This document shows positions 6,226 through 43,275 of a stretch of 64,000 nucleotides of DNA, piece after piece. Source of the stretch: Aplectana chamaeleonis. Its lineage: Eukaryota; Nematoda; Chromadorea; Rhabditida; Cosmocercidae. Made by a program: the position numbers and the translations under genes. Under the pieces are notes generated by a model. That model searched no databases and was not told the origin of the DNA. It saw only the letters and a program-made list of their open reading frames with translations. Every line of letters starts with the position of its first letter. The stretch's first letter is position 1. Where the stretch lies: contig JAPDOI010001765.1 in assembly GCA_029168955.1 (NCBI GenBank), forward strand, positions 79,859 through 143,858. The letters are read 5' to 3'.

Positions 6226-6711
6226 AGGCACTGTTCGCGATAAACTTCATCCTGGAATTTTCATTGACAAACGCTTCTCGTGGCTCTCAGAAGCAGAACA
6301 GCGTCGAAGAAACGGGATGAAACGCTACCCAGGAGCCGCAAAACGGCTTAGAAATGTGGGCAAACCCCGCAATTGTGGGCAAGTCCCGCCTCTTCCCGCC
6401 CCTCGACGTGAAGAAAGGAACACTCGAAATCGTGAGTTGAGCGATGGTTTCCGATCAAAAGCCCCGTTCTTCCCTTCATTCGCAACTTCTCTCTTTACTC
6501 AGGTCATCTCGCACACATTGGCTGCAAAAGACGGAAGTTACAAGCTTCGGACAACTCGTCCACCATTTTCCCTAGCTCAATTTTTGAGGGACCATAACTC
6601 CATTCCCAGAAGGTCTTGTACGATTCCAGAAGCATCATTGGAATCAGAATGGGACCGGTTTCAAGATAGGCAAAAAAAACAGAAAAGCGATTTTTATCGC
6701 GAACAGTGCAT
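6226..6711. mobile_element. TTAA miniature element, family I, copy a
   Basis: The element is 486 bp long and bounded by inverted ends (AGGCACTGTTCGCGATAAA; TTTATCGCGAACAGTGCAT). It is flanked by TTAA at 6222-6225 and 6712-6715. Removing it and one TTAA restores the LINE codons for HLFNCP, which proves the boundaries. It carries an open frame on the + strand that runs in from the LINE and stops at the right end. That frame is also largely open in the inverted copy at 31334-31819. A TTAA duplication is known for piggyBac and Kolobok elements, and the superfamily here is not decided. Confidence 0.92.
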
Positions 6712-6797
6712 TTAATTGTCCGGAGAGACCAACCACGCTGACCACAACGGACCTATGGACGAATCCAGTACTGGCCGCCCAGTTTCTTCGCCTATGA

Positions 6798-7204
6798 CAA
6801 AACCCTCTAAGTGGCTGCAAAGGAGAGGAAGAGATGCGAAGAAGTCGGGGAGGGCAGTTTACGACATTAGAGAAGCTATAGTAGGTCAAACGCACGTATC
6901 ATGGTGTCGCCAACTTTTGTCCCGATTTTACGTGATTTCTCCTGTGATTTCTCAATCGCGTGCTCAACTGGAATGAAAGGCGCCTCACGTCATAGAGTGC
7001 AGCATTCGGCCCAAAAGTGCCGGCCCTGCAAGGGGACTTTGGCGCGCGCTCCCCCTTTTGAGGGGCAGGCATCGGTGACGGAGGGTTCCCCCTGTACCTG
7101 CGCTAGCCCCCTCCATTGTATGAGTATGGGAAAGTTTTTGAATCCGTTTTTCCAACTCCGTTCTACTTCTAATGAATACCACATTTTTTTCTTATTGAAA
7201 ACTC
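6798..7204. other. Unassigned, includes LINE 3' tail
   Basis: The first part probably is the LINE 3' untranslated region. A GC-rich block around 7015-7115 is not recognised. Confidence 0.3.
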
Positions 7205-7233
7205 AAGAATGAATTTTATCGTGAACAGTGCCT
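7205..7233. mobile_element. Solo right end of a family I TTAA element
   Basis: The bases TTTTATCGTGAACAGTGCCT are followed by TTAA at 7234-7237 and match the right end of the family I elements. I could not find the matching left end, so this is a truncated copy. Confidence 0.6.
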
Positions 7234-7237
7234 TTAA

Positions 7238-8100
7238 TAGTACGCGCAAGTTCAGGAAGTACTCGCATGTAAAAGCAAAAGCAAATGACTTCCAGGACAA
7301 TCACTAAAATCACAGGTAACTCGTGTAGAATCTGAGTAGCTGCAGAGATGGAAGACGGGCGATGCTTGTTTTCTTCGATTTCCCAGTCTCTCCTAGTAAT
7401 ACTGTAGGTTTTTCTACAAAAAGAGCAGAATCGCAAATCTCCTTTGAACTTTTTCATGAGAATTATCAGAACATTGGGACCTCCTTCATCGGAAATGACC
7501 TCAGTGGAAGCGGTCAGCAATTTTCTCCGGTCAAATGTCCCAATGAAGAAATCTAACGAGAACTTTTCCCGCGCACGCCTGCTTGATAATTACTCAGCTT
7601 AGGAAATATTCAGAACACAGTTGGGATCCCACCTGTGCCTCCACCAGTTAATATGACGCATATTACGGCTACATCAATCAGTACAAGCAGGGAAGCAGTT
7701 ATCTGAAATGAATCGCAGTATGAAACACAAAATTTGGAGAGCTCATACTTCAGCGATTAAGGTACAATCGTGATGAAGTTTCATCTTGCGTTCGTCGGGC
7801 AATCTGCTGAAAATGGGCATTCCTTTTCCTCGCCGTAGTCGATTTAATGGTATGCAGAATTGATTTGACACTTACCTACAACGCCGCTCGAAGAATGGGG
7901 GCGCGGCACTAGTTTTCGCGTTTTTAGCGCACTTGGAACTGAGCTTTTCATGGATCTCAAACAATAATTTAAAAACCCGATGAGGGTATCTAACGGTTCG
8001 ATGAATGTTAGTGTTTAGGTTTCAGCAGAAAAAATTTTGGGTTAAAATTCTTATTGTGCGTAGTTAGTGTAAAAATACTGTATGCGGCTGGACAGAGCTA
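7238..8100. other. No recognisable feature
   Basis: Both strands contain only short open frames without recognisable motifs. Nothing is supported here. Confidence 0.4.
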
Positions 8101-8132
8101 TATGCAGCGCGTTTCAAAAGTATAGACACACC
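8101..8132 (+). mobile_element. Possible solo Tc1-type terminal repeat
   Basis: The bases GCGTTTCAAAAGTATAGACA resemble the ends at 27183 and 31314, which begin CAGTGCGTTT next to TA. No matching partner was found near this copy. Confidence 0.35.
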
Positions 8133-8133
8133 C

Positions 8134-8367
8134 TCAAAAAGCCGTTAATGGAGCTGGATCCAATTTCGCAAGGAAGATATGATCACCGCTGAACTCACCT
8201 TGTCGGAAAACCCTAGATTGCAACATTTCGTATAAGCAGAGAGCATTTGCTTTATCGAGAAATTCATCTAAACCATTTATATTCATTAAAAATGCCCCAG
8301 CATGGCCACAGGAAATAGTGCCCGCCTGGAACAAAACTGTCGAAATAATCTTAGTAGTGTAATGCAT
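8134..8367 (-). other. Exon-like duplicated segment (minus copy)
   Basis: The minus strand has an open stretch preceded by TTGTTCCAG, a plausible splice acceptor, and interrupted by CAAG-GTGAGT, a strong splice donor match, after the residues QSRVFRQ. Sequence beyond the donor (DPAPLTAF in frame) is also conserved in an inverted copy at 9195-9390. The unit of duplication is therefore larger than an exon and may simply be a repeat. No function is recognised. Confidence 0.3.
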
Positions 8368-8748
8368 TCAGGCCCCTATGGGTGAGCCTGTAGGGAGTGC
8401 ATCAGGTCGGAGAAAGCAACGAGCAATGATTTCCTTCTATCGACTACCATTCTAGACCGAGCCCTTTGTTGCAGAAGTCGATAAATTGCCTGGAACCAAA
8501 ATGGTCGTCTTCCTCGAGCTGGGAACAAATCCACCCATACCGTGGAATGTTCGCGCAACCGGCTTCTTCAGTTATTCAAAATTTCGCTATAGTTGGGGTA
8601 ACCCCGAAACAGAGAGCTGCGGACACCTCAGCGGCCTGCGCTGCGTCGTGTGCGCCCATGAGAAATGTGGTGATCGATCGGCTCACACGACAGGCGCGCC
8701 GGCTGCTGAGTGGTTCGCAGCCATCTGTTCCGCGGCTACAACCTATAG
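8368..8748. other. No recognisable feature
   Basis: There are short open frames on both strands, none with a recognisable domain. Confidence 0.35.
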
Positions 8749-8985
8749 TTGTACACGAACGAAATTTTCGAAAAATTTTCGAAAGATTTTTCGAAATTTT
8801 TTCGTTCGTTTTCGTTCGTTCGAAATTTCGTCGAACGAAATTTTTTCAAAATTTGTTCGTTCGAAATTTCGTCGAACAAAGTTTTTTCAAATTTCGTTCG
8901 TTCGAAATTTTTCGAACGAAAATTTTTCAATTTTCGTTCGTTCGAAATGTTTTCGAACGGAATTTTTTCATTTTTCGAAATCAGA
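8749..8985. repeat. TTCGTTCGAAATTT tandem palindromic array, copy 1
   Basis: About seven imperfect units of roughly 33-36 bp are built from TTCGTTCGAAATTTCG and its complement CGAACGAAATTTTTTC. The array starts at the anchor CTATAGTTGTACACGAACG. A second array with the same anchor, in opposite orientation, lies at 27609-28068. Long open frames in every phase are by-products of the composition. Confidence 0.85.
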
Positions 8986-9194
8986 ATAGCCCTGGTGACT
9001 GTCGGCTTCCCTCGAAGACGGCAGAGTTGCTCACCGATTCTCGGGCTGGACATACCCACTCGACTCACAACATGTAACTGGACTCGCTAGGTCTATGAAA
9101 GGCGGTCACCGCTAGGCATGTAGGCTGTGAGTGGTGAAATCCTCTCCCTACCCACACAAAACTTGAGCCAAAGAACCCTTTCAAGCCTGAACCA
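8986..9194. other. No recognisable feature
   Basis: Single-copy-looking sequence between the array and the duplicated segment. Confidence 0.3.
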
Positions 9195-9390
9195 GTGTTT
9201 CCTTCCATTTCTGAAAGTGCGTCTATTCTTTTGAGAATTGATTCTTGTGATTTGATGACAAAATCTACGTATTTTTTGACTCTCACGACTGCAATGTTAT
9301 ACGCTAGAGTTTACCGGCAAGGTGAGTGCAACGATCATCATAGCTTCCGAGGTAAATTTGATCCAGCCCCAATAACAGCTTATCTGTGGG
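9195..9390 (+). other. Exon-like duplicated segment (plus copy)
   Basis: The plus strand reads ARVYRQGE followed by DPAPITAY in one frame, matching SRVFRQGE and DPAPLTAF of the inverted segment at 8134-8367. CAAG-GTGAGT is again present inside the match. The upstream parts of the two copies barely agree. Origin and function are unknown. Confidence 0.3.
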
Positions 9391-9468
9391 AGGGGGGGTG
9401 GTGGTTTCGTCTCTATACTTTTGCGATGCGCTGGATACTCGGTGAAGATCTGGACTGAAATGCAGTAA

Positions 9469-9773
9469 AGGTGCCGAGTTGATCGCAATACGCTTGGCTT
9501 CGAAGGAGATTGAACCAGCATTTTCCCTTTCCGGGGAGCGCTGCTCTCACCCAGCTGCTCGGTCAATCTTCACCGATTGCTTCGGACGGTATTCCTGTTT
9601 CATCTCGTTATGCTTGTGAAAAGATGATTGCTTCGGTGCAGATTTACCGAGCAGTTGAGTGAGAGCGGCGCTGGGGCTTCGGTGGTGCAGTGCTGTAAGG
9701 CGCTCCCCCGAAAAGGGAATATGCTGGTTCAATCTCGCCCGGAGACAAGCGTTTTGCGATCAACTCAGCACCT
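9469..9773. repeat. Inverted pair of tRNA-derived (SINE-like) segments
   Basis: The left arm (9469-9578) and right arm (9630-9773) are inverted copies beginning AGGTGCCGAGTTGATCGCAA and ending CTCAGCACCT. The right arm, read on the plus strand, has TGGTGCAGTGCTGTAAGGCG followed 36 bases later by GGTTCAATCTC. These resemble the A and B boxes of a tRNA-type RNA polymerase III promoter. The left arm lacks a stretch of about 27 bases that contains the A box. No complete cloverleaf can be drawn, so this is a SINE-like relic and not a tRNA gene. Confidence 0.5.
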
Positions 9774-11520: not shown

Positions 11521-11569
11521 AAAGACTAAAGAGCGAAATGATACTTTGCTTATGAGCAGCTTACAGCTA

Positions 11570-12068
11570 ATATTGGTAGCCATAACGTTGGCATCGATGA
11601 CTGCCGGACACCTTATAGGAATAGAAGCAACAAGGTTGGAGAGACTCGAGACAGGGGAAGACTTGCAGGCCTGCTCGGGTTGTGCAAGTTTTTCAGTCGC
11701 AGTTCGAGCAGTTTTGCCCAAAAGTGCCCGTCCCAATACCGCCCAGAGGTGTTCGATTGGGATTAGATCCGGGGATTGACTCGGTCAGTCCATTACGAGG
11801 CTGCGGCGCTGGTCAAGCCAATCCTTGACAGACCAAAAGCCTGCATCGGATCATTTTGGAGTCTTGCTGGAAGACAAAGTCCCTAGGCATGGCAACTTGG
11901 CCAAGTTTGATCGTATGATTCTTCAATCTGCCCTTGTACAACTTCTTATCCATAGTAACATCTGTGCGGTTCAGGGGACAGACACCATTTGCATGAAAGT
12001 CTGAGGAGAGCCCCATACCTTCACTGGACTCCGCAACAGAGGCCTAAACTCATCTGACCAGATGTCCC
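11570..12068 (-). pseudogene. Tc1-like transposase fragment (minus)
   Basis: The minus strand reads from the first catalytic block (DIWSDEF near 12060) through VWGS, a degraded HANGVCPLNRTDVTMDKKLYK segment, then FVFQQDS (second Asp). The DDE C-terminus follows as PIEHLWAVLGRALLGKT and NLVASIPIRCPAVIDAN, ending near 11575. These are Tc1-family landmarks: VWG, FQQD and the IE-LW motif holding the third acidic residue. Part of the region between SDEF and VWG is missing, frames shift near 11810, and the stop found in the plus copy is lost. The fragment lies head to head with the plus-strand copy that starts at about 12070. Tc1 transposases cut and paste DNA at TA; this one is inactive. Confidence 0.8.
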
Positions 12069-12069
12069 A

Positions 12070-12957
12070 AGTATACTCTCATTGGTACAGACGGCATAAG
12101 CCACTTCGAACGCTCAATAGGTTCTAGGCTGCATCTTCGCTCTAAGTTTCCCATTGTTTAACATGGTCGAGGCGCCGTAATGGTATGGGGCTGCTTTCAC
12201 GCAAATGGTGGCAGTTCCCTGCACCGCATAGATGGCGCTATGGATAAGTTGGTTTGCAAGGGCGCATTGGGGAGCCATATGCGACTGGCCGAAACAATTT
12301 CCGGACCTTAAAGGCAGTGTTCACGATAAATTTCACTTCCGATATCTCCACGGTTTACGGAAGGTCTGGTGCCCTATATAGCAAGGCATGCTTAAAAGGA
12401 CACGAAAGACGCGTTTTTGAGCAAAAATAGGCCTTCTCTTGTTTACGTTGATTTTTGAGCGTGGAGGAATCGACCGCTAGAAGGGTGATACCTATCAGTG
12501 CAATTAAGCAAACAGCTCCTTTACCAGCACTTCCTTCACTTGATCATTCCTGTAATCTGAGTCTTCAATTGTTCCTTTCGAGGGGAGGATCTGGGGCACA
12601 GGGCGTGTCTGTGGCACCGAAACGCTTGTTTGCAGCAGTCATTTTGCAGCTCCTGGTTCGTTTTCTACCGTTCTTTCGACACAGGGAGTCTAGGATCCTT
12701 GTCGCCTATCATTTCACTGTGGAAAGTCAACGAGGATGATCATCGTGAACGCTGCCTTTAATCTAATCGAACATCTCTGGGCGGAATCGGGACGGGCACT
12801 TCTGGGCGAAACTGCTCCAATTGCGAGTGAAAAGATCGAACAACACGAGCAGGCGTGGAAGTCTTTCCCTGTCTCGAGTCTCTCCAACCTTGTTGCCTCT
12901 ATGCCTAGAAGGTGTCCGGAAGTGATCGATGCCAATGGTATGGCTACGAAGTATTAG
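12070..12957 (+). pseudogene. Tc1-like transposase fragment (plus), split by a TTAA element
   Basis: The plus strand reads HGRGAVMVWGCFHANGG and LHRIDGAMDKLVCKG, then SGPDL. After the 446-bp miniature element at 12312-12757 it resumes as NLIEHLWAESGRALLGETAP and continues through NLVASMPRRCPEVIDANGMA to TKY and a TAG stop at 12955-12957. The third acidic residue is the Glu at 12769-12771. The segment with the second Asp (FQQD) is deleted. Excising the inserted element and one TTAA leaves GAC CTT AAT CTA, reading D-L-N-L, which is normal Tc1 sequence. The N-terminal DNA-binding region is absent. Together with the minus copy this looks like a palindromic, internally rearranged Tc1 locus. Confidence 0.85.
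12312..12757. mobile_element. TTAA miniature element, family I, copy c
   Basis: The element is 446 bp long, with ends AGGCAGTGTTCACGATAAA and CATCGTGAACGCTGCCT, between TTAA copies at 12308-12311 and 12758-12761. Its removal restores the Tc1 transposase frame. It has no recognisable coding sequence. Confidence 0.92.
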
Positions 12958-14944: not shown

Positions 14945-15360
14945 AGGCGCAGTCCAACCTCAGGGGTAGAATTTGATGTTGTAGTCCGCCCACCGTGTAC
15001 AAGCGCAAGATCTGAATTCGATCAGATGAGTGAGAAAATTCAGGGATAAAGTCGGCCCCACTCCCCATACCCTAGAAGCATAATCAAGCGTTTTGCTCCG
15101 AATAGGGGACCAAAATCATTGCAAACTGAAAAACTGATTAATGTGGCGATGCTCATAGGCAAAGAAACTATAGCAGAGCTCTTGGTTCCCTTTTCGAGGC
15201 GGTGTGCGCCGTTATGTAGGCTTTTGAGTATTGTGGGCGGGGCCGACTTTTTCCCTGTAGTTTCTCCCTTATTTGATCGATATCTCGCGCTTGGCAAGGT
15301 TGCTATTCACGGTGGACTGATCATAGTACGAAATTTCACCCCCGATATTGGACGATGCCT
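14945..15360. mobile_element. TTAA miniature element, family IV, copy k
   Basis: The left end is AGGCGCAGTCCAACCTCAGG after TTAA at 14941-14944. The right end, ATTGGACGATGCCT, is followed by TTAG, a decayed TTAA. The interior resembles the family IV copy at 25713-26185 (a GTCCGCCC block, then a Cs-rich GGCCCCACTCCCCAT block). Length 416 bp, non-coding. Confidence 0.75.
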
Positions 15361-18165: not shown

Positions 18166-19542
18166 AGTCGGCATGAATCCTTGTGATACTCTGCATTCCC
18201 TATTGAAGGTTGCGCTTGGCCAGGGTTTTTCGCTTACTGCGAGTGACTAAATATGTTTAGAAAAGCTAATTGGGAACCCCTTGCTTACGGTTCCTGGACG
18301 CGAAGCGACGCTTTCGTCGGGTCTAAGAATAAATCCTTACAGCTTGGTTACATACTATTGCGTCCCTATAACAAAAACACGTCTTGATTCTCAATCGATA
18401 TGATCGAAAAAGTATTATGTGGAAGACTCCGTTGCAGCGAAACTAGCAATAAGGCAATTTGAAAGCGCGTAAACGATTGTCGGCGTTATTCAATCGACTC
18501 CGTAAGGTCGAATGGTATTCTGAAGCAGAGACATACAAAACAAATCGATCCGGACGGGAACAACTGAAATGATGGGCGATGACAACTGCACTCGTCTATG
18601 TCGATCGTTTCAATAAATTTTTTTCGACTGTCGCTGTTGACAAGCTATAGTGGTTGAATCTGACCAGAGGCGAGCTGCAATGACTTGCGATAAAAACTAT
18701 ACCCTCATGCCGATCTTACCAAGACGATAAAATATGTCCCAGTAATATGTCCAACATGCTGCACTCATAGTTATTCATATCTTTTATAGAATTCTCTGCC
18801 GGCCACTTGTTTGAAGTTTTAGTGGTTGCAACTTGTACCGAATATGCATCGACAGATCCAGAATTCTTGAGAAGATTATCGTACCAGGATTTAGGACGCC
18901 ACAACAGTTTTGCACGATCTGTCATGCCGTTGATGTGATTCTCTCATAGATTGCACTGTTGATTCAAAGTCACGTCACAGAGCGAAAAAGGTTCTCTTTC
19001 TCTTGCAGCTACGAAGTTTTGGAGAAGGAAGCAAAGTAAATTGATGACACACACGGAAAGAAGGAAGGCGAAATATGCAAGAAAACCTTATATGGTTTGT
19101 AAGCTCTAGAATACTTCGTCTCATCCTAACTTATTCAGTGTTGCGTAGAACAAGCTCGCCCAAGCCAAACAGTAATAAAATTCCAAGTGATCACAAGGTG
19201 TAGGCAAAACCAAACCTCTCCAGCCGCTTCGCGGCTGGAGCGATGAAGGGCATCATTCACGATGGAAATCGTTTCCGAGTTTTTCATATACAATGGGAGC
19301 TCTAGTACTATATAATAGCTATGTTTAAAAAAACCGCGAAAAAAAACACAGAAAACTTCTTTTTTCAAACCGAAATTCTCTCGTTCGACTTTTTAGAAAG
19401 GAAGAGTCGATTGCTACGAATTGCTGTGTTGACCCATGATCTCTCACTCGAACGGAGTTCGTCTTTCTTTCAGATGATCTATGGGGAAGGAAAGGTTCAC
19501 TGATGTATGTAGACAAGTCATTCATCACGTAATCGTATAATT
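18166..19542. other. No recognisable feature
   Basis: Short unsupported open frames only. A CCAGCCGC-TTCG-GCGGCTGG hairpin lies near 19218-19238. Confidence 0.35.
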
Positions 19543-22796: not shown

Positions 22797-24608
22797 CGAC
22801 TTGGCCGGCGAGAAGTGGGCTATTTTTATCTGAGCTCTTATACCGCAAACAATCGATGTCAGTCACAGACCCAACAGCGAAAAAATTCAGTCGACTAAGG
22901 GTTGCTGACTTTGCACCGAATGAAACTTTTTGGTTCTTTTTTCAATTTGGTTGTAATACTCTGCACAAAAAAAATCCGACATTCGACTTGAAAAATTCGA
23001 CAATTATATTTCATCGCGAACACTGCCTCCGGAGTACTTTCTCTTTCAGTGTTTGCCAGTTGCGGACGTCAATCACAAATTATGACTGCTGAGAACAATG
23101 TTCAAACAGGAAAGACTGTTCGCCCCTGTCCAACTTCTTAATCCGGATCCCTTTAACAATTTCCAGGACTTTGAAAACAACTATTGTCTTAGCGCATCCA
23201 GCTGCGAGCCGAGAAACACCTCGAAGTGATGCAAGTTAAGGAAATTTGCTACTGATCCGCTCACTTTCTGGAAAATTTCTTTGTTGAACAACAATCTTAC
23301 AGGCTAGAAAGGAAAAATTTTGGGTCGCAGAAAAAAAAGAAACTCATCAAAAGGCCAAAGATTTGAAAATGTCGAGCCCGTTGGCTACTCCTACACCAAA
23401 TATTGCAGAGCTCTACGGAACCCTTTCAGCTTCACCCTACTTCTAGAATCTATTGCAAGAAGAACTCGTAGGTTGATTCAATGTCATTCCAGAAATCGTA
23501 GAAATGGAAGACACCAACGAATACAAAAAGTCACTATGTTATCAAATTTATCTAATTAGGCAACAAAGATTTAGCGATCGATTTCTATTGGGAGCGACAT
23601 GACATTTCCATAGAAAAGCTGAAGGAAAAGTAGGCTGCATTATCATATTATCCGAACAACAAAATGGATGAGCCGCAAACAATAATGGTATGCACGCGAT
23701 GGACGACGCGTCACGAACACGCGGCATTCATATCCTGCCCGACGGACCAACAGCACTGTCATCAGTGCTGTTAAAGGGATGCGGAAGCAACAGAAGTGCT
23801 CTGCAGTAGCTATGAGGGACATCCCCATCATATCACGAAAAATTAAGCAATAGAAAAATAATAAATCAAAAAAATATCATCGTCTCACTTCTATCGATTA
23901 GTCGTGAGCTTGGTATAGCTTTGGCTACAATATATTTGGTGAAAATACGCAACCGCACCACAGCCTTTCTCAGTTGGGGTAGACTATGAGACTTGTGGAG
24001 GAGAGGATCCACCATATATGTACATAGGAGATTTTGATGAATTGTAGGCTGAACCCTGATTGGTTACTCTCCGAGTTTATGGAGTCGAGGGCCTCTGAAA
24101 TGGAGAGTTGTTAGCTCTATTTGTTCCTCTGCAATGTATAATGTACCTAGATGTTCATTTTCGTGGGGCATGAGCGGAGATGTTTAACGACCCACATCTG
24201 TTAGAAATGCGAAAAATTCAAGTTTTACCGATTTGTCGTCTAGCACGCAGCACCTCATCTGGTAGACCGCACGATGTATTCATAGTCTGCATTGGTTCCG
24301 GAATTAGATTCGTGTGTTGCAACTTTACTATAAGATTTTGCGGTTCTTCAATCTCGCAACTGCTGCTCTGCCCTGTGTAAAGCAAATCTTGCTTAGATGA
24401 GTCCGGGCGATGCGGTCGCTCACGGCAAAACATAACAAAGATAAAAAAACGTTGACAGGATAAGCCCGTTATGTCGAATTTCGACCGGCTCAGAATGGTG
24501 TAGAGGCTAAGTAAACGATTTGGCTGTATCCTGTGGAATTTCAGTGGAAATGATACTTTGATGTGAACATGTCGTGTTTTACAAGCAGTTCTGTGTGGAG
24601 GGCGATAT
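22797..24608. other. Largely unassigned; solo TTAA-element end at 23009-23028
   Basis: TTTCATCGCGAACACTGCCT at 23009-23028 matches the right end of family I miniature elements but lacks a flanking TTAA and a left partner. The rest shows only short unsupported open frames. Confidence 0.45.
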
Positions 24609-25167: not shown

Positions 25168-25708
25168 AGGCAGTGGTCGCGCTCAAATATGCTCGTCTTC
25201 TTTCCCTCTCTGAACCCTTATCTGGGTATAGAGTAGTAGAACCTATAAGAAAAAAGCGCGAAAAAAACGCTGTTCTAGGCCAAATTTGAAGCCTGAACTT
25301 TCTTGTCTTTTGATGGTGGACGAGTCGATCCCACATCATCGGCATCGATGATCTCTAGTATCAAAAACATCAGCTGCCTCGAAACTGAATTTCAATCAAT
25401 AAACCTTCGGATTTATGTGCACATCTGGTCAAAAACATTGATTGAAGTGCTTGCTTTCATTGTTCAACTGTTTTATTAGGTAAACTTACATTTATTTCTT
25501 CCTCTGAGTGTCGATGATTTTCGACTGCTCGGCATAAGACAGACTATTATCTTTCTGTGCACGTGTGCACGAACTAAAGTTTAGGGTCTTAATAACTCTA
25601 ATTCTAGCCCGTTTTTCACCGCGCTACCTTCATAGTTTTTGAGCTGTTTTTGATCTGAGCTGATTTTTGTAGCTTTTTCGATAACGTCTTTCATCGTGAC
25701 CACTGCCT
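25168..25708. mobile_element. TTAA miniature element, family II, copy g
   Basis: The ends are AGGCAGTGGTCGCGCTCAAA and CATCGTGACCACTGCCT. TTAA lies at 25164-25167 and 25709-25712. A second copy at 42685-43229 is alike in length (541 against 545 bp) and sequence. The right TTAA is shared with the next element. Confidence 0.9.
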
Positions 25709-25712
25709 TTAA

Positions 25713-26185
25713 AGGCACAGTCAAAGCTCAGAGGTAATTTTTGATATTATACTCCGCCCGCTGTGTAGAGCAACCCTGCCAAGCGCAAAATCTCAATTCG
25801 CTTAATTAAGCAAGAAAAAGCGAGGAAAAAGTTGACCACGCCCCCATGAAAGAAAAATTAGTGACGCCCACTGGCAAGCTTCCGACCCAAATAGGGAAGA
25901 GAAGCGTGATTGATTTCATTCAAAATCTATGTTATTCCATTAGTTTCCGGCCTGGCTTTGTATTGTGACCTGCTTCAAAACGATGGCTGCGAATAGCGAG
26001 GAAAAATAGGCTCGGGACAACTCGTCCGCAAACTTCTCGCCGTTCAAATTTGCAATCTTTGAGGGGCCATAACTCCGTTCGTAATGAGTTCTTAGCGACT
26101 CTGGAGACACCATTGTGATCAGCGTAGAATTTTCTTCAAGACAAGCAGGAAAACAAAATATCGATTTTGAGGTTGGACTGTGCCT
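25713..26185. mobile_element. TTAA miniature element, family IV, copy l
   Basis: The left end AGGCACAGTCAAAGCTCAG directly abuts the TTAA that ends the previous element. The right end GGTTGGACTGTGCCT is followed by ATAG, a decayed TTAA. It is related to 14945-15360. Length 473 bp. Confidence 0.82.
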
Positions 26186-26334
26186 ATAGAGAAGAGCCCA
26201 GGGAATGCGTCGAGAAACACCGGAATTTCTAGATGTTGGTGTTAAACAAAGAGTGACTTCAGAAAAAACATAACTCATCGACCGGATGCAGTAGCGGCTT
26301 TTTGTCATTTATTTATAGGATAACTATCAAATTA

Positions 26335-27162
26335 TTAGATTGATGCAAAAGTTTCCGGACTTTTCACGACTTTGAATAAAAAACATTTATTTCTGAAACA
26401 AACAAGGCTCACCCAACAAAATAACTTTCATCACATTCACGGATCCTTCGCCACTGATTGGGCAGATCATGAATTCTCGACGCGTCGAACTCTGGCTGTT
26501 TCGAGGCGGAGTATTCTTTCAAGGCCATTTTGACTTTGTCATCATAAGTGATCTGTTTTCCATTCACGCGGAACAGCTGGTACTCGGAAGGGGCACGATG
26601 TGGGCTATATGGAGGGTGAGGAAGAACTTCTCAGCACAGGTCCAGCAGTTTCTGTCGGGTTATCCGAGATACTTTTGGCCGAGCATTGTCGCGAAGAAGG
26701 CGAACAGTGGACCTGTGGCTGTACTCATGAAACTACGGGAGCCCCCCGGGAAGGTTTTGAGAACCAGCCGATGTAAGCAACGAGCGGACTTTGGACCCTC
26801 CCGGGATGCTCTCGTTGTTACATGAATACGGCCATTGGACCGGGGCTCGGAAATTCTTCCTCGCCCCCTATATAGCCCAGATCTTGCCCCTTCCGAGTAC
26901 CATCTGCTCCGCCCGATGCAGCACTTCCTCGATGGAAAACAGTTCAGACGCGATGACGAAGTCAAAATGGCCTTAGAAGAATACTCCGACTCGAAACAGC
27001 CATAGTTCTGCGCGTTGGGAATTCATGATCTGCCCAAACGGTGGCGAAGGATCCTTGAATGTGATGAAAATTATTTTGTTGGGTGAGCCTAGTTTGTTTT
27101 TGAAATAAATGAAATTTTTATTCAAAGTCGTGAAAAGTCCGCAAACTTTTGCATCAACCTAA
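26335..27162. mobile_element. Palindromic mariner derivative with two transposase C-termini
   Basis: Both ends are mariner-type repeats (TTAGATTGATGCAAAAGT; ACTTTTGCATCAACCTAA). Translating outward from the centre gives the transposase C-terminus on both strands. The minus strand (about 26700 to 26410) reads RDNARPKVSRITRQKLLDLC, a stop, EVLPHPPYSPHRAPSEY, and on to LPNQWRRIRECDESYFVG. The plus strand (about 26860 to 27090) reads YSPDLAPSEYHLL, GKQFRRDDEVKMALEEYSD, a stop, then LPKRWRRILECDENYFVG. In both arms the third catalytic residue is Glu (APSE) where mariner normally has Asp, and the Asp-to-Glu spacing is 34 residues. The N-terminal half is absent, so the element is non-autonomous. It probably arose as an inverted-duplication deletion derivative. 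Confidence 0.85.
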
Positions 27163-27182
27163 CAATTGTTGTCACTAGCAAT

Positions 27183-29992: not shown

Positions 29993-30453
29993 AGGCAGCA
30001 TACACGCTCGTAAACGTGGTTGGGATAACAATGTGAATCAAACCGTATGGCTTACAACATAATGCCTACGCATTTTGAAGTGTCAAAAATGACCCACAAT
30101 GCCGCTACATAAGTTAGAAGTTGGCCCCGCCCTGTACTTTCACGCCCCCTGCATTTGCGCTTTTGCTCCAAAGCAGGTTTGCTCGGTCATCTTCGCCGTC
30201 AGTGACGTGTGTGGTTCACTTATTAGGCAACCTGCCGACAGTACCGACGGTGAATATGACCCAGCAACCTTGCGTTGCAGGAAAAGGGCAAAAACAGGGG
30301 GCGTGAAAATACAGGGCGGGGCAAACTTCTAACTCATGTAGCGGCATTGTGGGTCGTTTTTGACACTTCAAAATGCGTAGGCGTTGTAATCTGGGCCATA
30401 CCATTCTATTTCCTTAGTTATCTCAATCAAGTTTACGAGCGTGTATGCTGCCT
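29993..30453. mobile_element. TTAA miniature element, family III, copy i (fold-back)
   Basis: The ends AGGCAGCATACACGCTCG and CGAGCGTGTATGCTGCCT lie between TTAA copies at 29989-29992 and 30454-30457. Almost the whole 461 bp is one palindrome. For example, ACGCATTTTGAAGTGTCAAA near 30068 returns inverted near 30358-30377. Such elements can form a long hairpin. Confidence 0.9.
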
Positions 30454-31333: not shown

Positions 31334-31819
31334 AGGCAGTGTTCACGATAAAATTCCCTTCTCTGTTTTTTCACCTATCTTGCAAACGGTCCCATTATGA
31401 TTCCAATGATGTCTCTGGAATCGTACAAGACCTTCTGGGAGCGGAGTTATGGTCCCTCAAAAATGGAGCTAAGGAAGCATGGTGGACGAGTTGTACGAGG
31501 CTTGTAACTTCCGTTTTTGCAGCCAAAGTATGCGAGCTGGCCTGAGTAAAGAGAGAAGTTGATAATGAAGAGAAGAACGGGGTTTTTGATAAGAAACCAT
31601 CGTTCATCTCACGATCTCGAGTGTTCCATTGTTCACGTCGAGGGGCGGAAAGGGGCCGGACATGCCCATAGCAGCGGAGCTTGCCCACTTTTCTAAGCCG
31701 TTTTGCGGCTCCTGGGTAGCTTTTCGTCCCGTTTCTTCGACGCTGTTCTGCTTCTGAGAGCCACGAGAAGCGTTTGTCAATGAAAATTCCAGGATGAAGT
31801 TTATAAAAGAACAGTGCCT
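31334..31819. mobile_element. TTAA miniature element, family I, copy e
   Basis: The element is 486 bp, exactly the length of copy a and in the opposite orientation. Its left end is AGGCAGTGTTCACGATAAA after TTGA, a decayed TTAA. Its right end is AGAACAGTGCCT before TTAA at 31820-31823. On the minus strand the frame matching copy a (KLHPGIFIDKRFSWLSEAEQ) stays open for over 100 codons with many amino acid differences. The right TTAA is shared with the next element. Confidence 0.9.
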
Positions 31820-31823
31820 TTAA

Positions 31824-32455
31824 AGGCAGCAGACACGCTCGCAAACATGGTCGAGATATCATCGTAAAGAGGCCTGCACTGGCCCTAACATGTCGCGAAC
31901 GACGTTTGAAGCGCTGAAAATCATTCAGGATGACAATATTTTAGCAATCATGTCTCTCACGCCCGTATTTTCACACCCCTTCCTGTAACATAATGAAAAG
32001 TTAAACTTGAGGAAACATGTGATAATTGAGAGTGATAGCTCTATCAAAAGGGAGTGCAAGAGAGGAACAGCTCGATTTACCTGGATATTACATGTTTGCG
32101 CACCGATGAAATCCTCCATTTTCAGAAGTCAGCCGGAGCAAAGCCGGCATTCTCGAAAGTGGACGAGAGTTAATCGGTATGCAGACGTGTTATACTCAAG
32201 TAAATTGAGCTGTTTCTCTCGTGCACTCCCTTTTGATAGTGCTATCATTCTCAATTATCACATGTTTTCACAAGATTAACTTTTCATTCTGTTACTCAAA
32301 GGGGTATGAAAATACGGGCGTGCAAAACATGATTGCTCAAATATTGTCATCCTGGATCGTTTTCAGCGCTTCAGACGTCGTTCACGACATGGTAGGGACC
32401 GTGCAGGCCTATCCATGCTAATATTTCGACATGTTTGCGAGCGTGTATGCTGCCT
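31824..32455. mobile_element. TTAA miniature element, family III, copy j (fold-back)
   Basis: The ends are AGGCAGCAGACACGCTCG and CGAGCGTGTATGCTGCCT. The left TTAA is shared with copy e, and the right TTAA is at 32456-32459. Arms of roughly 260 bp are inverted copies of each other; GTGATAATTGAGAGTGATAG near 32020 returns inverted near 32238-32258. Length 632 bp. Confidence 0.9.
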
Positions 32456-32459: not shown

Positions 32460-33569
32460 GAAGCAAGATGATGTGGAACACTAAGCAAAGCAAGTTTCAA
32501 CGTTTTTTTTTCAGAACGTCCTTACTATTTTCACTTTCGATATTACGCATATCGGTCGTTATTGCTATGGGCATACGGTCGTCTCGGCATGCGTGCAAGT
32601 CACGAGCAGCCTGCGTGTGTTCGTAATGCTATAATGACGGCCTCTCATTGCCGATCGGACTGTACGTGGAATTCCACATTTTTTTCGAACGCAACATCTC
32701 AAAGTATTTGGCTCTCAAAGTATGAAGTTCAGGACACAAGTGAGCACGCCATAAATAGACAAGAAACTTACAGCGAGTGGAGCAGTTTTTCCAGATGCGC
32801 ATTATAGATGATCTGTAAATTGATAAAGAGGTAGAGAAATGTTTGTGCGAGGAGAAAATATTTCTGAAAAATCCCGTTAGAGAAAATAGTGATCAAAATA
32901 CAATAATTAGCTCCTGACAGTGTTTTTAGTAACATTACAAGAAGAGCCGGGTAGCACCAAATAGCGAGTGAGAGAGCAAAGTTGGAGAAATGTCGGAGCT
33001 CAAAGCCCTTCCTCGGAGTTATTCTCAGCAGCCTTGTTTTTCTGTGCTTTCCAAATAATGTCAGCGTCTCTGGAATCAATTCGTAGGTCCGTAAAACGAC
33101 TACCGAGAACTTCCTCAACTATCCGTAAACGTCGTCCTGAAATTGGAGATTCAGGTCAGACTTCTTAGAAATGTTCATCGGCTGGACCTCTGTAATTTTC
33201 AGCACCATCCTTGCCCTGCTCAATTCACCAAGCCTCACTGCATTGCTGTGCATTGTCGCCGTCATGGCGTAGAGGGGCTAGGTCGTGTGATGACTGAAAA
33301 ATTGTAAGTAGTGATAGAAAATTCGAATAACGTGAACTCACTGCAAAACCTCCTCGCAGCAACAAACTTTATTCAGTGCGTTCTTCGCCTCGCATATCGA
33401 GGTTGCTCCATATGGGCTTGCCTTGTCTACGTCATCTTGGCAAGTGCTTCACAAGGCGACCGCGCGGAAGGCATCGTACTTGTTACTTTTTATCGCAATG
33501 CATCGCCGCTGTATAGCTTGGAGTGGTGCACGCACGCATTTTTGGAACTTTAGTTCGTCCTAAATGTTG
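32460..33569. other. No recognisable feature
   Basis: Open frames of 60-116 codons on both strands lack recognisable domains. Confidence 0.35.
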
Positions 33570-34345
33570 ATCTATAGCACGTGCTCGTCTATTCAAAACG
33601 TAGTTCGAACTCTCGGCCATTTATGGATGTCGGCAACATGTTGAATGTTGAATGTTGAAGACAGTATGGATGGAGAACAAAACCTCTGAACAATTTTCGA
33701 CTGCGCGTAACAAGTGCGTTCTTATATGATCCATCAACATAGATACTCAGAAAACCACCGCATTCAATGCGTGTGGAATATGCATTCAACTCTAGTGACC
33801 ACACCCATCGAAAGGCTTTTTAGCAGGCGCACGTGCTCCAGACAGCAGCACGTGCTGCGAAATTTCACCGCAGGAGCACGTGCTGCAAAAGTTTATAGCA
33901 GGAACACGTGCTGCAGGATAGCCCAGCGTTATCGTAGCAGCACACCGTCACGCGACGCTACCGGAACACCCACATGCGACGCGGCCAACTCGCTGAGCAC
34001 CACCTGGGGCTGCCAGCGGTTGGACGAGGTCTCCAGCGGCTGGGTGTGCCAAGTACCGCAAACTTGGGTAATTAAACCTGCGACGCTATCGGCATCTCAG
34101 TACTGCCTCAAGAATGCGTCGTGTGCTTTCCTTTTTCGGAAAATCGCGTTTGATTTGGTGGGGCACGTGCTGTAATTTGACACACAATAGGAGCACGTGC
34201 TCTCCTAGCAGAACGTCCTCTTACTGTGCTCGAAACCGCATCGTCTTCGAGTTGAATGCATATTAAACACGCATTGAATGCGGCGATTGTGTGAGTATGT
34301 CGAAGCAGTCCTTGCGCTTTCCTCCATAAAACGTTCCAATCATAG
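33570..34345. mobile_element. CACGTG palindrome-rich element
   Basis: Seven CACGTG palindromes, mostly within AGCACGTGCT, occur between 33579 and 34205. Inverted arms CCGCATTCAATGCGTGT (near 33757) and ACACGCATTGAATGCGG (near 34264) plus GCATTCAACTC/GAGTTGAATGC define the element core. The centre holds the QVPQTWVIKP module at 34049-34080. CACGTG is the core E-box, but here it is more likely a transposase-binding or structural repeat. Exact termini are uncertain. Confidence 0.65.
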
Positions 34346-35176
34346 TACATACATTCACGCATAGTTACGTGTTCAACGTCGATAACTTTTGTAGCTTATT
34401 ACCTAGCCATTACATGAGGCGGCATCCGTCAGAGTAATGAGGAATGACACTCCCGAATCCAACCTATCGCTTGACTTGAGCCAGGAGAGAACTGATGGCT
34501 CTACTCTCATCCGAGGGGAGAGAAACCACAGGCAACCCCAGCTGCGAGATCCATCTCAGTAATAGCCGAAAGCTTTCTGCCTCCATTTGGCTGATAACAC
34601 CACCCAAAGTGTATTTGATCGCTTTTGGAGTTACGCAGCTGTCCTGTATGCAGGACCACTTTAGTCCGCATATTCGCTAAGACCACCTATCCAATCAGAG
34701 CTGTGTACGCTCGGCAATCAAAGGCCCCGCCCGTAACAACATGAATACCAGTCTAAAGCACTAAAGGACGTCAAAATAAAGTAGGACCTCTCGTCCTTGT
34801 ATCATAGATTTTACCCCATAGCGTTTCTTGATTAGCTCTGAAAAAAACTTTGAACAGAGTTGTAGACTTACTGGATTGCAAGTTTCGTCCAGCCAAACTC
34901 CCGAAAAATTATTTTGAAAATATGACTGAGTTTAGCTGCTTCGCTCGTCGCTGTATTTCCCTAAATCTTTTCGAAATTTTCGCCGACGGGAGTTCATACC
35001 GAAAGCTGCAATGCATAAGAAATCTGAGTCTTCAATGCGGTTACCAATGTAGCGACGTTTCCAAGAAAGTTCATTCGCTGGAGTGATCTACTCTATGTGG
35101 GTGATTTTCCCAGCGCTTGGACGCTAAGCAACGGCAAAGGCCGCACCCAAATTTAACCATCCTGTTTCAATAGCCC
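34346..35176. other. No recognisable feature
   Basis: Nothing supported. Confidence 0.35.
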
Positions 35177-36850: not shown

Positions 36851-37332
36851 AGGCAGTGTTCACGATAATCTTCAATTTTGTGATTATTCGCTATATTGAT
36901 AAGTGGCCCCCGGGTGGAACTAAAATGACGTAGAAATTGAGAAAAACGCACCAGAAGTACACGAAATCCTTAAGTATCACTCGGCCTCTTAAGTATCACA
37001 GGAAGTGTTTGTTGTGACAATGAAATTTTTTGTGGACCCGTCCTTTGCAATTCTCTACTCTTCATTGCTCAGTTCTTTCCTTAGGGCCCCAACTAATCCT
37101 GCTTTCCATAAAATATTCTTCTATTTCGGTTGACCCAATTTACCACCGATGACAACCACCATGAACATGTTCATCCAATCGGTCAACTAGTCCATGTTAT
37201 AGAACAATGTCACTGAAATACGACGTTTTAATGCATTTCTCGCCGTTTCTTCTCATTTTTGGCAACACTTGAAGGCCAAGGCATTGTTTTATGTGAAAAA
37301 CTCGGGGACGAAAATCATCGTGAACACTGCCT
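36851..37332. mobile_element. TTAA miniature element, family I, copy f
   Basis: The ends are AGGCAGTGTTCACGATAA and ATCATCGTGAACACTGCCT. TTAA lies at 36847-36850 and 37333-37336. Length 482 bp, with no coding content. Confidence 0.92.
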
Positions 37333-38866: not shown

Positions 38867-38867
38867 A

Positions 38868-38995
38868 AAATGGCATTATCTGAATCGATCCAATATCCGA
38901 AAATTTGAAAAAGCGCATTATCTGAATCGAACCAATATCCGGAAAATTTTAAATCGGCATTATCCGAATCGATCCATTATCCAAAAATTGTCTTT
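38868..38995 (+). repeat. 42-bp minisatellite, three units
   Basis: The three units carry CATTATCTGAATCGATCCAA, then TATCCGAAAATTTG, and repeat every 42 bp, giving a 14-residue peptide period (HYLNRSNIRK) in one frame. Degenerate ATCCGAA words continue upstream to about 38810. Confidence 0.75.
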
Positions 38996-39163
38996 GGATA
39001 ACAAGTATAATGCAGAGGCTCTGACGAAGGTGCTGAAACGCTGTGTGCACTGACTGGACGGAATTCGTCCTCACGAACTCGGCAGTTGCCAAACACGAAG
39101 CGCTAGAGTGGAATTGCTTAATCGATTTCTACAGGAGTTAAAAAGTTAAAGTAGAAATCTACA

Positions 39164-39781
39164 GGAGTTGAAAAGTTTCGGCAGTTGAAAAAGGAGCTCG
39201 AAGTGGAGGCTAGAGTTGCGAGGAAGCTCAAGCAGGGACCGACAGGATTCGCGGGCCAGAAATCAGCCCTACTGATGGAAAGAGATGGGCCGAGAGGTGG
39301 CCTTATCACTAAAGTCACGAAATCTTTCGCCAAGGTGAAAGAAGCTTTGAAGGGGTGGTCGACGTTTTCTGTATGGGTGATCGTGTGGCCGATCGAGAGC
39401 AGTGGGCAGAGAGATATCGTCAAGGATATCGTGAAGATGGCGAAAAAACACTTGGAATCGGGAGGACGAATTGTGACGGTTTGGACGCCGATCACAGCTC
39501 AAAAACAAAGGAAGTGGATCTCCATGATGCAGTCATGGAAAGCTTTGAACGATGCGTGCCTGAGATTTGGAGGGACTGAACAAGTCATCGTCACAGCCAG
39601 CAACGTCAAGAGAGACGGCAAGGTGTTCATCGAGGCAGGTATCCCGGAGGCCGCAGTTCAGTTCTACAACGGATACCCCGGCGTAGCTGCTGCGAAAATG
39701 TTGTATGCTGTAGTTTGTGGGAAAGCGACTAGTTTCAGCTTCGGTCAATCGAACGCTCGACGAGGGCACCGAGCTCGTTGA
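39164..39781 (+). CDS. Uncharacterised protein, probable exon or element gene
   Basis: An uninterrupted frame runs from a TAG at 39152-39154 to the TGA at 39779-39781, encoding about 205 residues. No ATG lies near the start. TCTACAG before 39164 resembles a splice acceptor, so this may be a terminal exon; the duplicated TTTCTACAGGAGTT at 39125-39138 offers an alternative. The protein begins with a basic, charged helix (KKELEVEARVARKLKQ), followed by VWVIVWPIESSG, then ESGGRIVTVWTPITAQKQRK, a possible globular core, and ends in a basic tail. No signal peptide or membrane segment is seen. Codon use and the lack of low complexity make it more gene-like than anything else in the window. I do not recognise the family; a retroelement Gag-like protein or a lineage-restricted gene are both possible. 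AATAAA lies at 40256-40261 downstream. Confidence 0.55.
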   Translation, partial: GVEKFRQLKKELEVEARVARKLKQGPTGFAGQKSALLMERDGPRGGLITKVTKSFAKVKEALKGWSTFSVWVIVWPIESSGQRDIVKDIVKMAKKHLESGGRIVTVWTPITAQKQRKWISMMQSWKALNDACLRFGGTEQVIVTASNVKRDGKVFIEAGIPEAAVQFYNGYPGVAAAKMLYAVVCGKATSFSFGQSNARRGHRAR

Positions 39782-39960
39782 AAGGGGGGAAGGGCATGTC
39801 GGGAAAAGAAGAAGGCTTACCTTTCCAGGAGAGGATGCCGCTAAAACGTAGAGCCCTTTAGGTGGAGTTGGTGTCGACGGTTGATGGTGTGGTCAAATGC
39901 CTGGCCACAGAATCAATGATCGGGCGCATGAAAGATCACGCGCGGCGGTGGCGCGTATAA

Positions 39961-40098
39961 GGCCCTAGTTATACACCAGTGTTTCACCGCCGCTGGCTTC
40001 CGCGGCATGTCTGCTATTGGTCAGTTTCAAAATCTGACCAATCGCAGACGTCCCCCAAAAAACCAGCTGCACCGAATCGCCGATGTATAACTAGGGCA
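39961..40098. mobile_element. TAA miniature element (hairpin)
   Basis: The ends are GGCCCTAGTTATACA and TGTATAACTAGGGCA, with an inner palindrome around GATTGGTCAGATTTT-type sequence (40016-40050). TAA flanks both sides (39958-39960, 40099-40101). Length 138 bp, and it could fold as one hairpin. PIF/Harbinger-like by duplication. It lies in the probable 3' region of the frame ending at 39781. Confidence 0.82.
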
Positions 40099-40101
40099 TA
40101 A

Positions 40102-40606
40102 AGGCAAGCCAGAGAATGTGCGAGAAGTCTCTCAACCATCGACTGCTGTAGCTGGGTCCAACTGCCCCTAGACCGATTCCGTTGGACGTTAGGCCTTCGT
40201 GACTTGGTTAGGGTGGCCTTTGTGGCCAATCTCGGTGTTTAGGAATTTTAGGGTGAATAAAGCTAGTGTAAATCGTCTCGTGTCCGGTGTAGCTCTACAT
40301 TTCGGTGGCCACCTCTCATCTCATCACTTCTCTCCTTCTGTACCTGGTCTACCCAGTGATCCATAGTTTTTATCATTTGCACTGATTAATTTTCATATAT
40401 TGTAATATTTGTTTGCAACATAAATTTTTATCATTTCGCTGGTTGCATTCGTGTTGATATTGGTTTCATCCAAAACTTCCTGTATAGCTGGTTTCCAATT
40501 TCCTTACTGGATATCCGGGCAACATTTATGGTTTCGAAGCAGACTCTGATTATCCGAGAGCCGCTAAAAATGTATATGAATGTGCACTTAATAGTTTATA
40601 CCAGAA
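40102..40606. other. Unassigned; AATAAA at 40256-40261
   Basis: AATAAA is a possible polyadenylation signal about 475 bp after the uncharacterised frame. Nothing else is supported. Confidence 0.35.
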
Positions 40607-41623
40607 TGTTCAATAAGTTTTGTCGTTCGATAAGAAAAACAAAATTTCATGGTTCAAAATACACTTAGTTTTTCAGTATGGTCTCCCTGAACATTAATAC
40701 ACTTGCTCCAACGATTCTCCAATCTGTGGATCCCATCCCTGGAGTGACAATCCGAGAGATCTGCAAATTACGCTTCAACAGCCGTTATGACCTCTTCATT
40801 TGATGAAAAACGCTTGCCACGCATAAATTTTTTGAGTTCTAGAAACAACTGGAAGTCACTGGGGGCCAAATCTGGTGAATGCGGTGGATGCTCCAACAAT
40901 TCGAATCTTAATTCATGGATTTTAGCCATTGTCGAAATGCTCTTGTAACACGGTGCATTGTCCTGATGAAAAAGGATTTTTCTTCTGCAAAGCGGGTCTT
41001 TTTCACGATTTTTTCCTTCAACTGGTCCAGAAGGTTGCAATAATATTCAGAATTAATTATTTTAAAAGTTTGCAAGTAATCCACAAGCAAAATTCCTTTC
41101 GTATCCCAGAAAACTGATGCCATAACCTTCTTGGCCGGAGCCCGGACACGAACTCTTTTCCAAGCCGAACAATTAGGTTCACACCACTCTGTAGCCTTTT
41201 GTTTTGATTCAGGATCATGGTGATAGACCCAAGTCTCATCCATAGTGATGAATCGACGCACAAAATCCACTTCATCCTTCTCAAAATTCTTCAAATGTTC
41301 CTGAGAAAGTCGCATTCAAATGTGTTTTTGTTCCATTGTTAGCGGTTTGCGGCACCCATTGTGCACACAGCTTTCTAAAACCCAAAATTTCACTTAAAAT
41401 ATGGCTCACATTGCGTAATGAGATGTGTAGAGCCTCTACTAAATTATCCAATTTCTTCCATTGCTGTGACACGGCGAGACTAAATGGCTTGTAAACAAAG
41501 AATGAATTGACAGACTGAAATGAAACTTCACATACGTTCATATGAAGAGTGTACCAATAAAACAAAAGAATTTCGGCCTAGTAGCAACGCCCTCTCCTAT
41601 CGAACGACAACACTTATTGAACA
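40607..41623 (-). pseudogene. Mariner element with broken transposase
   Basis: Terminal repeats TGTTCAATAAGTTTTGTCG (left) and CGACAACACTTATTGAACA (right) enclose 1017 bp. On the minus strand the transposase reads NVSHILSEILGFRKLCAQWV, then ITMDETWVYHHDPESKQ (first Asp), VMASVFWDTKGILLVDYL, HQDNAPCYKS (second Asp) and SPDLAPSDFQLFLELKKF (third Asp). Exactly 34 residues separate the second and third Asp, the D34D signature of mariner. It is inactive: there is a frameshift near 41345, an in-frame stop just after QKHI, another frameshift near 41000, and the N-terminal DNA-binding region is mostly deleted. Full-length mariners are about 1.3 kb, so some 300 bp are missing. No TA duplication is clear at the ends. 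Confidence 0.92.
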
Positions 41624-41629
41624 ACTCCG

Positions 41630-42363
41630 CCAACGCGTAGCTAGATGCCTCTCACGGAAACCAGGGATGCCCACGGTTTCGGAGGCATCTAGTCTAATTT
41701 TGACACGAACATTTACGTGAATAACGGTAAGTTTAGCCTTAGTTGGTGAAATTTTAGCTACAACGCCAGCATATTCTACGTAAATTCTCGCTACAGCACG
41801 CGCATATTCTACGCTTATTCTCGGTGCAGCTCCCGGTCGATCGACCCACCCTGTGTTGATCCGTACTAGAAAGATCCCCGCTGCGATCGAGCGCATCGCC
41901 GTTTCTTCCCCACGGCCTGCAGCATACCAGCGGCCGAAATTATCCCTAGCAAGGTCTTCCAGAGAGCGACGCGGGGTACCCTCCACGACCACCCACAGAA
42001 AGTTAAGTTATCCGTGGATTGACTGGGCCAACACTGTTCGAACGGCATCCCTGTGTTCCGCGTAGTCAGCGCGGGTTTGAGATTGCGTTTCAACACAGGA
42101 CGTCGTTCAATCCGTAGATTCTCGCTACAAAATTGTAGCGAGAATATACGGATTGAGAGCAGATTGAGATCAGAGAGAGCACTGGCTCGAATTCAGCCTT
42201 CGTTTTTACGTACATCGAATACGCGCAGAATTTTCACCCTTGTAGCCTCGACGCAAGAATATGCAGGTTTTAGCTATCGTAGCTAAAACCCGTAAATTCT
42301 CGCTACATGGAATGGGGCGGCGTTTCAGGCCGCGCCCTCGGAGGCATCTAGCTACGCGTTGGC
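41630..42363. mobile_element. Inverted-repeat element with GTAGCGAGAAT words
   Basis: The ends GCCAACGCGTAGCTAGATGC and GCATCTAGCTACGCGTTGGC are perfect over 20 bp. The interior repeats ATTCTCGCTACA and TGTAGCGAGAATAT, including a palindrome at about 42118-42147. The left end lies six bases from the mariner end at 41623. Length 734 bp, no transposase recognised. Confidence 0.8.
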
Positions 42364-42384
42364 AGAGAACCTGGTATCAAACGA

Positions 42385-43275
42385 GAAAATGATGTCAAAT
42401 TGACCTACACGGAGCTACAAATACAGCATCAAATAAGAGTGTTTTTATGAAATCTCGTGAAAAAGTAGAAGTCCTTTTTTGGAAACCGTTGCACTCTTCT
42501 TCTTAAAATACCAAACCGGTTTGTTTTCGCTGTTTATAAGTGTTGGCCGAAAAAATCACTCTCACAAAACATTGATCTTTTTTTGAAGGCTGTTTCGACT
42601 CCACTTTCCTCTTGTTCCCTTTTTGTTGGAACGCTTGTGACACGAACCAAACCACTTCTGCTTGAAAGACCCCTTTTGGATTAAAAGCAGTGGTCGCGGT
42701 CAAATATGATTGTGTTCTTTTTCTCTCTAAACCCTTTTCTGGGTCTCGAGTAGTAGGACCTATAAGAAAAAATCGCCAAAAAACTACTGTTTTGGGCCAA
42801 ATTTGAAGCCTGAACTTTCTTGTCTTTTGATGGTGGACGAGCCCACTCCACATCATCGGCGATGACCTCTTATATCAAGAACATCAGCTGGTTTGAAATT
42901 GAATTTCAATCAATGAACCTTTGGATTTATGTACACATCTAGTCAGAAACATTGGCTGGAGTGGTTTCTTTCATTGCTCAACTGTTTCTATTGGGTAAAC
43001 TTGCATTTATTTCTTCCTCTGAATGTCGATGATTTTTGACCGCTCGGCATGAGACTGCGATCTTTTGGTCGGCGCTGTGCACGTGTGCACGAACTCTCTT
43101 CTTTGGGCCCTAAAAACTCTAATTGTAGCCCGTTTTTCACCGCGCTACCTTCATAGTTTTTCTGCTGTTTTTGATCCAAGCTGATTTTTGTAGTTTTTTC
43201 CATAACGTTTTTCATCGTGACCACTGCCTTTAAATTGTTCACTTTTTCTTGTCATTACGACGTAATATCCCTGAA
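42385..43275 (+). repeat. Third copy of the 43.5-44.0 kb repeat, split by a TTAA element
   Basis: 42385-42680 resembles 43772-43990 (ATGATGTCAAATTG, GGTTTGTTTTCGCTGTTTA, GAACCAAACCAC, GACCCCTTTT). 43234-43275 continues with TTGTTCACTTTTTCTTG as in 44003-44020. The family II element at 42685-43229 sits exactly at the break. Confidence 0.8.
42685..43229. mobile_element. TTAA miniature element, family II, copy h
   Basis: The ends are AAGCAGTGGTCGCGGTCAAA and CATCGTGACCACTGCCT between TTAA at 42681-42684 and 43230-43233. Homologous over its length to 25168-25708. Length 545 bp. Confidence 0.9.

Follow-up and report, generated by a model that had tools for sequence, protein, structure and literature searches.

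Miniature elements in the window

The stretch of DNA analysed here, called the window, is the final 64 kb of a 143.9-kb contig (C942) in the 1.04-Gb assembly of the nematode Aplectana chamaeleonis. It holds ten complete miniature inverted-repeat transposable elements (MITEs) at TTAA sites, and these are very probably non-autonomous DNA transposons of Kolobok type, probably served in trans by related transposases. A sequence-only reading of the same DNA had picked out these ten elements, and all were found at the coordinates it gave; their lengths add up to 4,968 bp, in agreement with its total of about 5.0 kb. An Rfam search returned nothing at gathering thresholds.

By their terminal repeats the elements fall into types A to D. 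The A-type MITE at 6226..6711 (forward strand) lies inside a long interspersed nuclear element (LINE) reading frame, and the one at 12312..12757 (forward) inside a Tc1-like transposase frame, each with TTAA on both flanks. The A-type MITE at 31334..31819 is of the same family as 6226 (89%) in the opposite, reverse orientation, with TTGA on its left flank, and the A-type MITE at 36851..37332 (forward) has TTAA on both sides. All others are on the forward strand. The B-type elements at 25168..25708 and 42685..43229 form another family (85%) and have TTAA on both flanks, the latter starting with AAGC on its left. The C-type element at 14945..15360 has TTAA on the left and TTAG on the right; the C-type element at 25713..26185 shares the TTAA at 25709-25712 with the 25168 element and has ATAG as its right flank. 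The D-type elements are near-palindromes, at 29993..30453 with TTAA on both flanks, and at 31824..32455 with the TTAA at 31820-31823 in common with the 31334 element. Around the Tc1-like fragment that hosts the 12312 element, inverted arms of 186 nt (87%), 1 kb apart, span 11573-12950.

The earlier reading had also counted two solo ends. The A-type solo end at 7188..7233 (reverse), TTAA followed by AGGCACTGTTCACGATAAAATTC, stands, with 46 bp resembling the 6226 end. Two further single ends come in addition: an A-type end at 23006..23028 (reverse), with the exact 18-base repeat and without a flanking TTAA, and a poorer one at 19248..19270 (forward), TGAA followed by GGGCATCATTCACGATGGAAATC, with 5 mismatches in 23 positions against the repeat of the transposase-bearing elements described below.

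If an element is taken out together with one TTAA, the reading continues as GHLF-NCPERP in the LINE and as PDL-NLIEHLW in the Tc1 element, so both coding interruptions close in frame and fix a 4-bp TTAA duplication, as had been proposed. TTAA adjoins 17 of the 20 element ends, the exceptions being the right ends at 15360 (TTAG) and 26185 (ATAG) and the left end at 31334 (TTGA). AGGC starts 18 of the 20, the exceptions being the right end at 6711 (ATGC) and the left end at 42685 (AAGC). The shared TTAA plus AGGC signature originally described thus holds for these majorities and fails at the remaining ends. Nineteen ends start with AG or AA, giving RR...YY termini, and 6711 starts with AT. A TTAA-specific 4-bp duplication and RR...YY termini are what the Kolobok superfamily is described as having, and both are observed here.

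Counting both strands, there are 16 exact copies of the string TTAAAGGC, of which 15 lie at element ends and the other at the solo end 7233; 100 first-order Markov simulations averaged 1.77 copies, with at most 7. When TTAA sites 100-3000 bp apart were searched for at least 10 inverted matches in 14 positions, 14 pairs were found against one in the reversed control. Nine of these join ends of the listed elements or the solo end, and five are other repeats. The elements at 14945, 25713 and 31334 were missed because one flank of each is not TTAA. Outside the window, in 115.3 kb around transposase loci (a non-random sample), 34 of 42 ends directly follow TTAA; 15 convergent pairs were formed, two with a reused right end, and TTAA flanks 13 of the 15 at both ends.

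Relatedness of the four types

The terminal repeats appear to grade into one another as variants of a single sequence of about 20 bp, and do not look like four sequences that have only AGGC in common. The type A repeat is AGGCASTGTTCRCGATRA and the type B repeat AGGCAGTGGTCRCGMTSAAA, which differ at few positions, and CRCGMT at positions 11-16 is common to A, B and D in most copies. The claims that the families diverge right after AGGC, and that otherwise unrelated families share a four-base core only, therefore have to be replaced by relatedness over some 20 bp, though weakly for C. Beyond the repeats, the C-type elements 14945 and 25713 have about 130 columns in common at their ends (67-68%), and the near-palindromes 29993 and 31824 share 26-38 bp of end. 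The A-type elements 12312 and 36851 have little beyond the terminal repeat in common with 6226 and 31334. Internally, 6226 (A) and 25713 (C) have a 28-bp stretch in common at 89% (E 1.7e-4), and one A and one C element also align over 68 columns at 74% (E 5.8e-4). The idea of four unrelated families is rejected on these comparisons and on the end matching given below.

In an end-pattern scan, the reversed control gave 12 matches to the loosest A pattern, 3 to B, 4 to C and 0 to D, and the loosest A pattern also matched a tandem array beyond 50 kb many times. Because of this noise, only TTAA-flanked and near-exact matches were used.

Transposases and their elements

Four matches to Pfam PF20700 were found in the host genome, and they are transposase pieces with the motifs AADGAYDSRGY, TTDRSRS and FDGWH. 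On contig C1640 a C2CH domain lies upstream of this core. With 150 of 157 candidates scored, the core from C1640 has 132 genome matches, one of them in the window, at 28-100% identity to that query. The matches listed form at least four DNA-level groups; the transposase elements examined further are called K1 to K4 here. A protein search gave seven relatives among 315 candidates, all from genera which we take to be strongylid. A profile search gave 46 of 7,998 scored, 42 of them presumably strongylid by the same grouping and the rest from unnamed or other sources, including one trout entry. Kolobok transposases are described with a zinc finger between the second D and the E, after C/DxxH; in the transposase alignment a conserved C/H pattern (CLMHVRDVH ... 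CxH) was noticed by eye. The N-terminal piece of the K1 transposase (C1640:73375-73665, within L015) matches Pfam PF25375, Lin-15B-like, at E 6.1e-7; P0029, a relative from Cylicocyclus, has a weak match to the same domain (E 0.011).

The long elements that carry this DDE transposase (D/CxxH, C2CH N-terminus) end in TTAA followed by AGGCATCGT[AC]C[GA]CG[CA]TGAAA[AT]CC. K1 on C1640 carries TTAA and AGGCATCGTACGCGCTGAAAACC at 67692 and the same repeat in inverted form near 78423, an end that has lost its outer bases and the TTAA; in a sibling on C19 the end is intact, with TTAA at 2049034. The 10.7-kb span of K1 contains sequence not present in its siblings. The K3 copies on C2006 and C794 are about 97% identical, and their matching stops at TTAA followed by AGGCATCGTCCACGATGAAAACCG. 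Right ends of K2 lie at C1363:527515 (TTAA) and C16:524835 (TCAA). The repeats of K1 and K3 differ at 3 of 23 positions. A boundary of K4 at C965:76794 was rejected, as it has neither TTAA nor a terminal inverted repeat; a segmental duplication may account for K4. What had been taken for a K1 end at L030:3443 is an insertion present in a single copy.

K1 and K3 have the DGWH motif (C/DxxH) and conserved D residues in elements with Kolobok-type ends, so the DDD/E transposase with C/DxxH is found in the long elements, and not in the MITEs themselves. The acidic triad of K1 and K3 is predicted from the alignment and a structure model. A first model from 8 sequences was poor (predicted local distance difference test score 39.7) and was not used; the second was built from 38 of the 46 proteins found with the profile.

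The window has a relic of the enzyme as well, absent from the list made in the earlier reading: a decayed Kolobok-type transposase at 33152..34749 (reverse) in pieces 34749-34377 and 33547-33152, with internal stops. It matches the C1640 core at E 1.3e-6, and it was described and searched piecewise, with E values down to 4e-23. Its core is nearest to K4 (44-51%), and its later part matches pieces of K1, K3 and K4 (39-51%).

The window ends were compared with those of the long elements in two ways. The autonomous repeat, with up to 7 of 23 mismatches, has 20 sites in the window in a scan run without a reversed control; these are 13 element ends, the solo end at 7233, the single ends at 19248 and 23028, and 4 sites without TTAA. 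For 21 window ends, the 19 positions beyond AGGC were set against the best of K1-K3: 7-14 of them agree (mean 11.5), where shuffled ends average 5.0-6.3. The match has p <0.02 for 18 of the 21, the exceptions being 14945 (left), 25713 (left) and 31819 (right), and ends within one family are not independent in these statistics. The C-type right end at 15360 has AGGCATCGTCCA in common with K3. By this matching, types A, B and D are tied to K-type ends and C is tied to them weakly.

Abundance and abutting insertions

Exact A-type ends number 38,536 genome-wide (19,229 + 19,307) and exact K1/K2 ends 2,084, with 0 in either control. The 6226 element has 41 genome matches at 92-100% identity among the 40 best-scored of 4,178 first-look candidates. 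The first 100 places listed for K1/K2 ends include many that converge in pairs at a spacing of about 460-630 bp, which shows that some MITEs carry the autonomous end. The A-type patterns had no match in the viral_contigs or genome_contigs collections, and among the papers listed in searches of the open-licence literature none was recognised as describing these MITE families. The MITE class is very abundant, and its superfamily is already known from nematodes (PMC9587614 and PMC11118728).

Six TTAA sites in 163.6 kb stand between two outward-facing ends (window 25709 and 31820; L013:2999; L015:1688; L018:9096; L066:4265), and five join different end types. Placing 28 elements at random among 498 TTAA sites gives an expectation of 1.44 (simulated P 0.0016). 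Some of the junctions were already known when the test was devised, the sequence examined comes from around transposases and hence is non-random, and ends were called by five bases, so this excess is a lead only. It is possible, though doubtful, that a Kolobok swarm with overlapping end specificity cross-mobilises the MITE families and favours TTAA sites adjoining a similar element already in place, which would let different families dock end to end through a single TTAA.

Which transposase moves the elements

TTAA is duplicated at the insertions, the terminal repeats are related, and the genome contains long elements that encode a transposase and have ends of the same class. The superfamily Kolobok is described with TTAA duplication, RR...YY ends and a DDD/E transposase with C/DxxH (PMC9587614), as here. 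The sequence-only reading had named piggyBac or Kolobok as the source. Kolobok is favoured because TTAA, RR...YY ends and this enzyme combine, the elements that carry the enzyme having ends closely similar to those of the window. That the MITEs are of piggyBac type and moved by host piggyBac transposases is very improbable, even though piggyBac likewise duplicates TTAA and the genome has 9 matches to the piggyBac profile PF13843, several with open frames. According to PMC10813416, piggyBac ends start with CCCTT, CCCAT or similar, whereas these start with AGGC; none of the window ends starts with CCC or shows the CCCT/CCCA-type motif. The single well-delimited host piggyBac, on C4, has TTAACCCATTCACGACC, starting CCCAT, and no AGGC start appeared among the three best inverted pairs at each of 7 of the 9 piggyBac loci (within about 1.5 kb of the match). 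The K-type elements with AGGC ends carry a transposase other than piggyBac. For these reasons piggyBac was rejected as the source. A transposase from another or an unnamed superfamily near hAT, Mutator or Sola3, resembling Kolobok in target and ends alone, is quite unlikely. Target duplications of hAT and Mutator are about 8 bases or more, against TTAA here, and Sola3 combines a TTAA duplication with a Sola transposase. The published Kolobok combination is TTAA, RR...YY ends and C/DxxH together (PMC9587614).

The number of enzymes is a separate question, on which the earlier reading had offered one transposase or a group of close relatives, taking the shared core as a sign of common mobilisation. 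A group fits better, because many diverged transposase copies coexist. One single transposase moving all families is unlikely: the graded series of repeats and the joining of different families through one TTAA would suit it, but the 132 matches span the wide range of identity and the DNA-level groups given above, and the ends of K1 and K3 are already apart. The core itself does not bear on this. Ten full-length Kolobok copies from Xenopus, in six subfamilies, all start with AG (PMC6004289, Table 5), so an AG start is general to Kolobok and a short core is no evidence for a single enzyme.

Several results weigh against assigning the MITEs to Kolobok transposases. Both ends were located for K1 only, the right one being damaged; K2 (no left ends found) and K3 (no second end found) gave one each and K4 none. 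Among the elements examined, no transposase element had exact A, B, C or D ends. The autonomous-repeat scan recovers just 13 of the 20 element ends, and the matches to K1-K3 are poor for the C-type left ends at 14945 (7/19, p 0.27) and 25713 (9/19, p 0.07), and for the right end at 31819 (7/19, p 0.21). Pfam's sole label for the core is 'Mutator-like' (PF20700), and the assignment was drawn from TTAA, ends and enzyme features set against published descriptions rather than reference sequences. Finally, Foldseek gave 570 matches at E <=10 and none at 0.001. No piggyBac enzyme was seen among the 50 rows listed, which excludes nothing.

Separately, piggyBac transposases on C1258, C1260, C1273, C1275 and C1245 have long open frames and no clear ends in the flanks fetched.

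Mechanism and comparison with known systems

In the model that we favour, a Kolobok-type transposase would carry an N-terminal C2CH (THAP-like, Lin-15B-like) domain and a DDE core predicted to have an RNase-H fold. It would most likely bind the terminal repeat of about 20 bp, excise the element and insert it at TTAA by cut-and-paste, duplicating the TTAA. A swarm of related Kolobok lineages, and not one enzyme, probably moves families A-D in trans. Since many diverged copies coexist, several relatives probably serve overlapping MITE sets, as suggested for Xenopus T2-MITEs in PMC6004289.

The Xenopus T2-MITE/XKol system, as that source describes it, is alike in its many MITE subfamilies, TTAA, AG or AGG start, several Kolobok lineages per genome and C2CH/THAP domains. 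T2-MITEs have a terminal AGGRR (PMC6004289), whereas the ends here read AGGCA or AGGCG, with C as the fourth base. Coral CMITEs, which are of piggyBac type, also show TTAA duplication, families with differing repeats and side-by-side elements, but piggyBac ends start with CC[C/T]T, and coral arrays repeat like elements while here mostly unlike elements join through one TTAA (PMC2872659). The CERP2/CELE2 MITEs of Caenorhabditis and the THAP protein HIM-17 (PMC9757741) are another case of nematode MITEs with a THAP-domain protein, and that is the point of likeness.

These elements are an extremely abundant nematode MITE class tied to a transposase superfamily in the same genome, and could be used to ask how the number of transposase lineages compares with the number of MITE families that they serve. 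With its Lin-15B-like match, the K1 N-terminus suggests that the DNA-binding part of a nematode regulator may have a connection with transposons. Otherwise, this is a nematode counterpart of the Xenopus situation.

Other features of the window

An inverted-repeat element at 26330-27167, with outer arms of 53 nt (94%) and inner arms of 180 nt (88%), resembles a mariner relic by eye. Strong C-over-G skew sets in at about 44 kb and continues onward. From about 50477 to 64000, the contig end, runs a long tandem array whose units measure near 42 bp and contain AAGCACTTTTCRCGACGTCCC and GATGACGTCATC.

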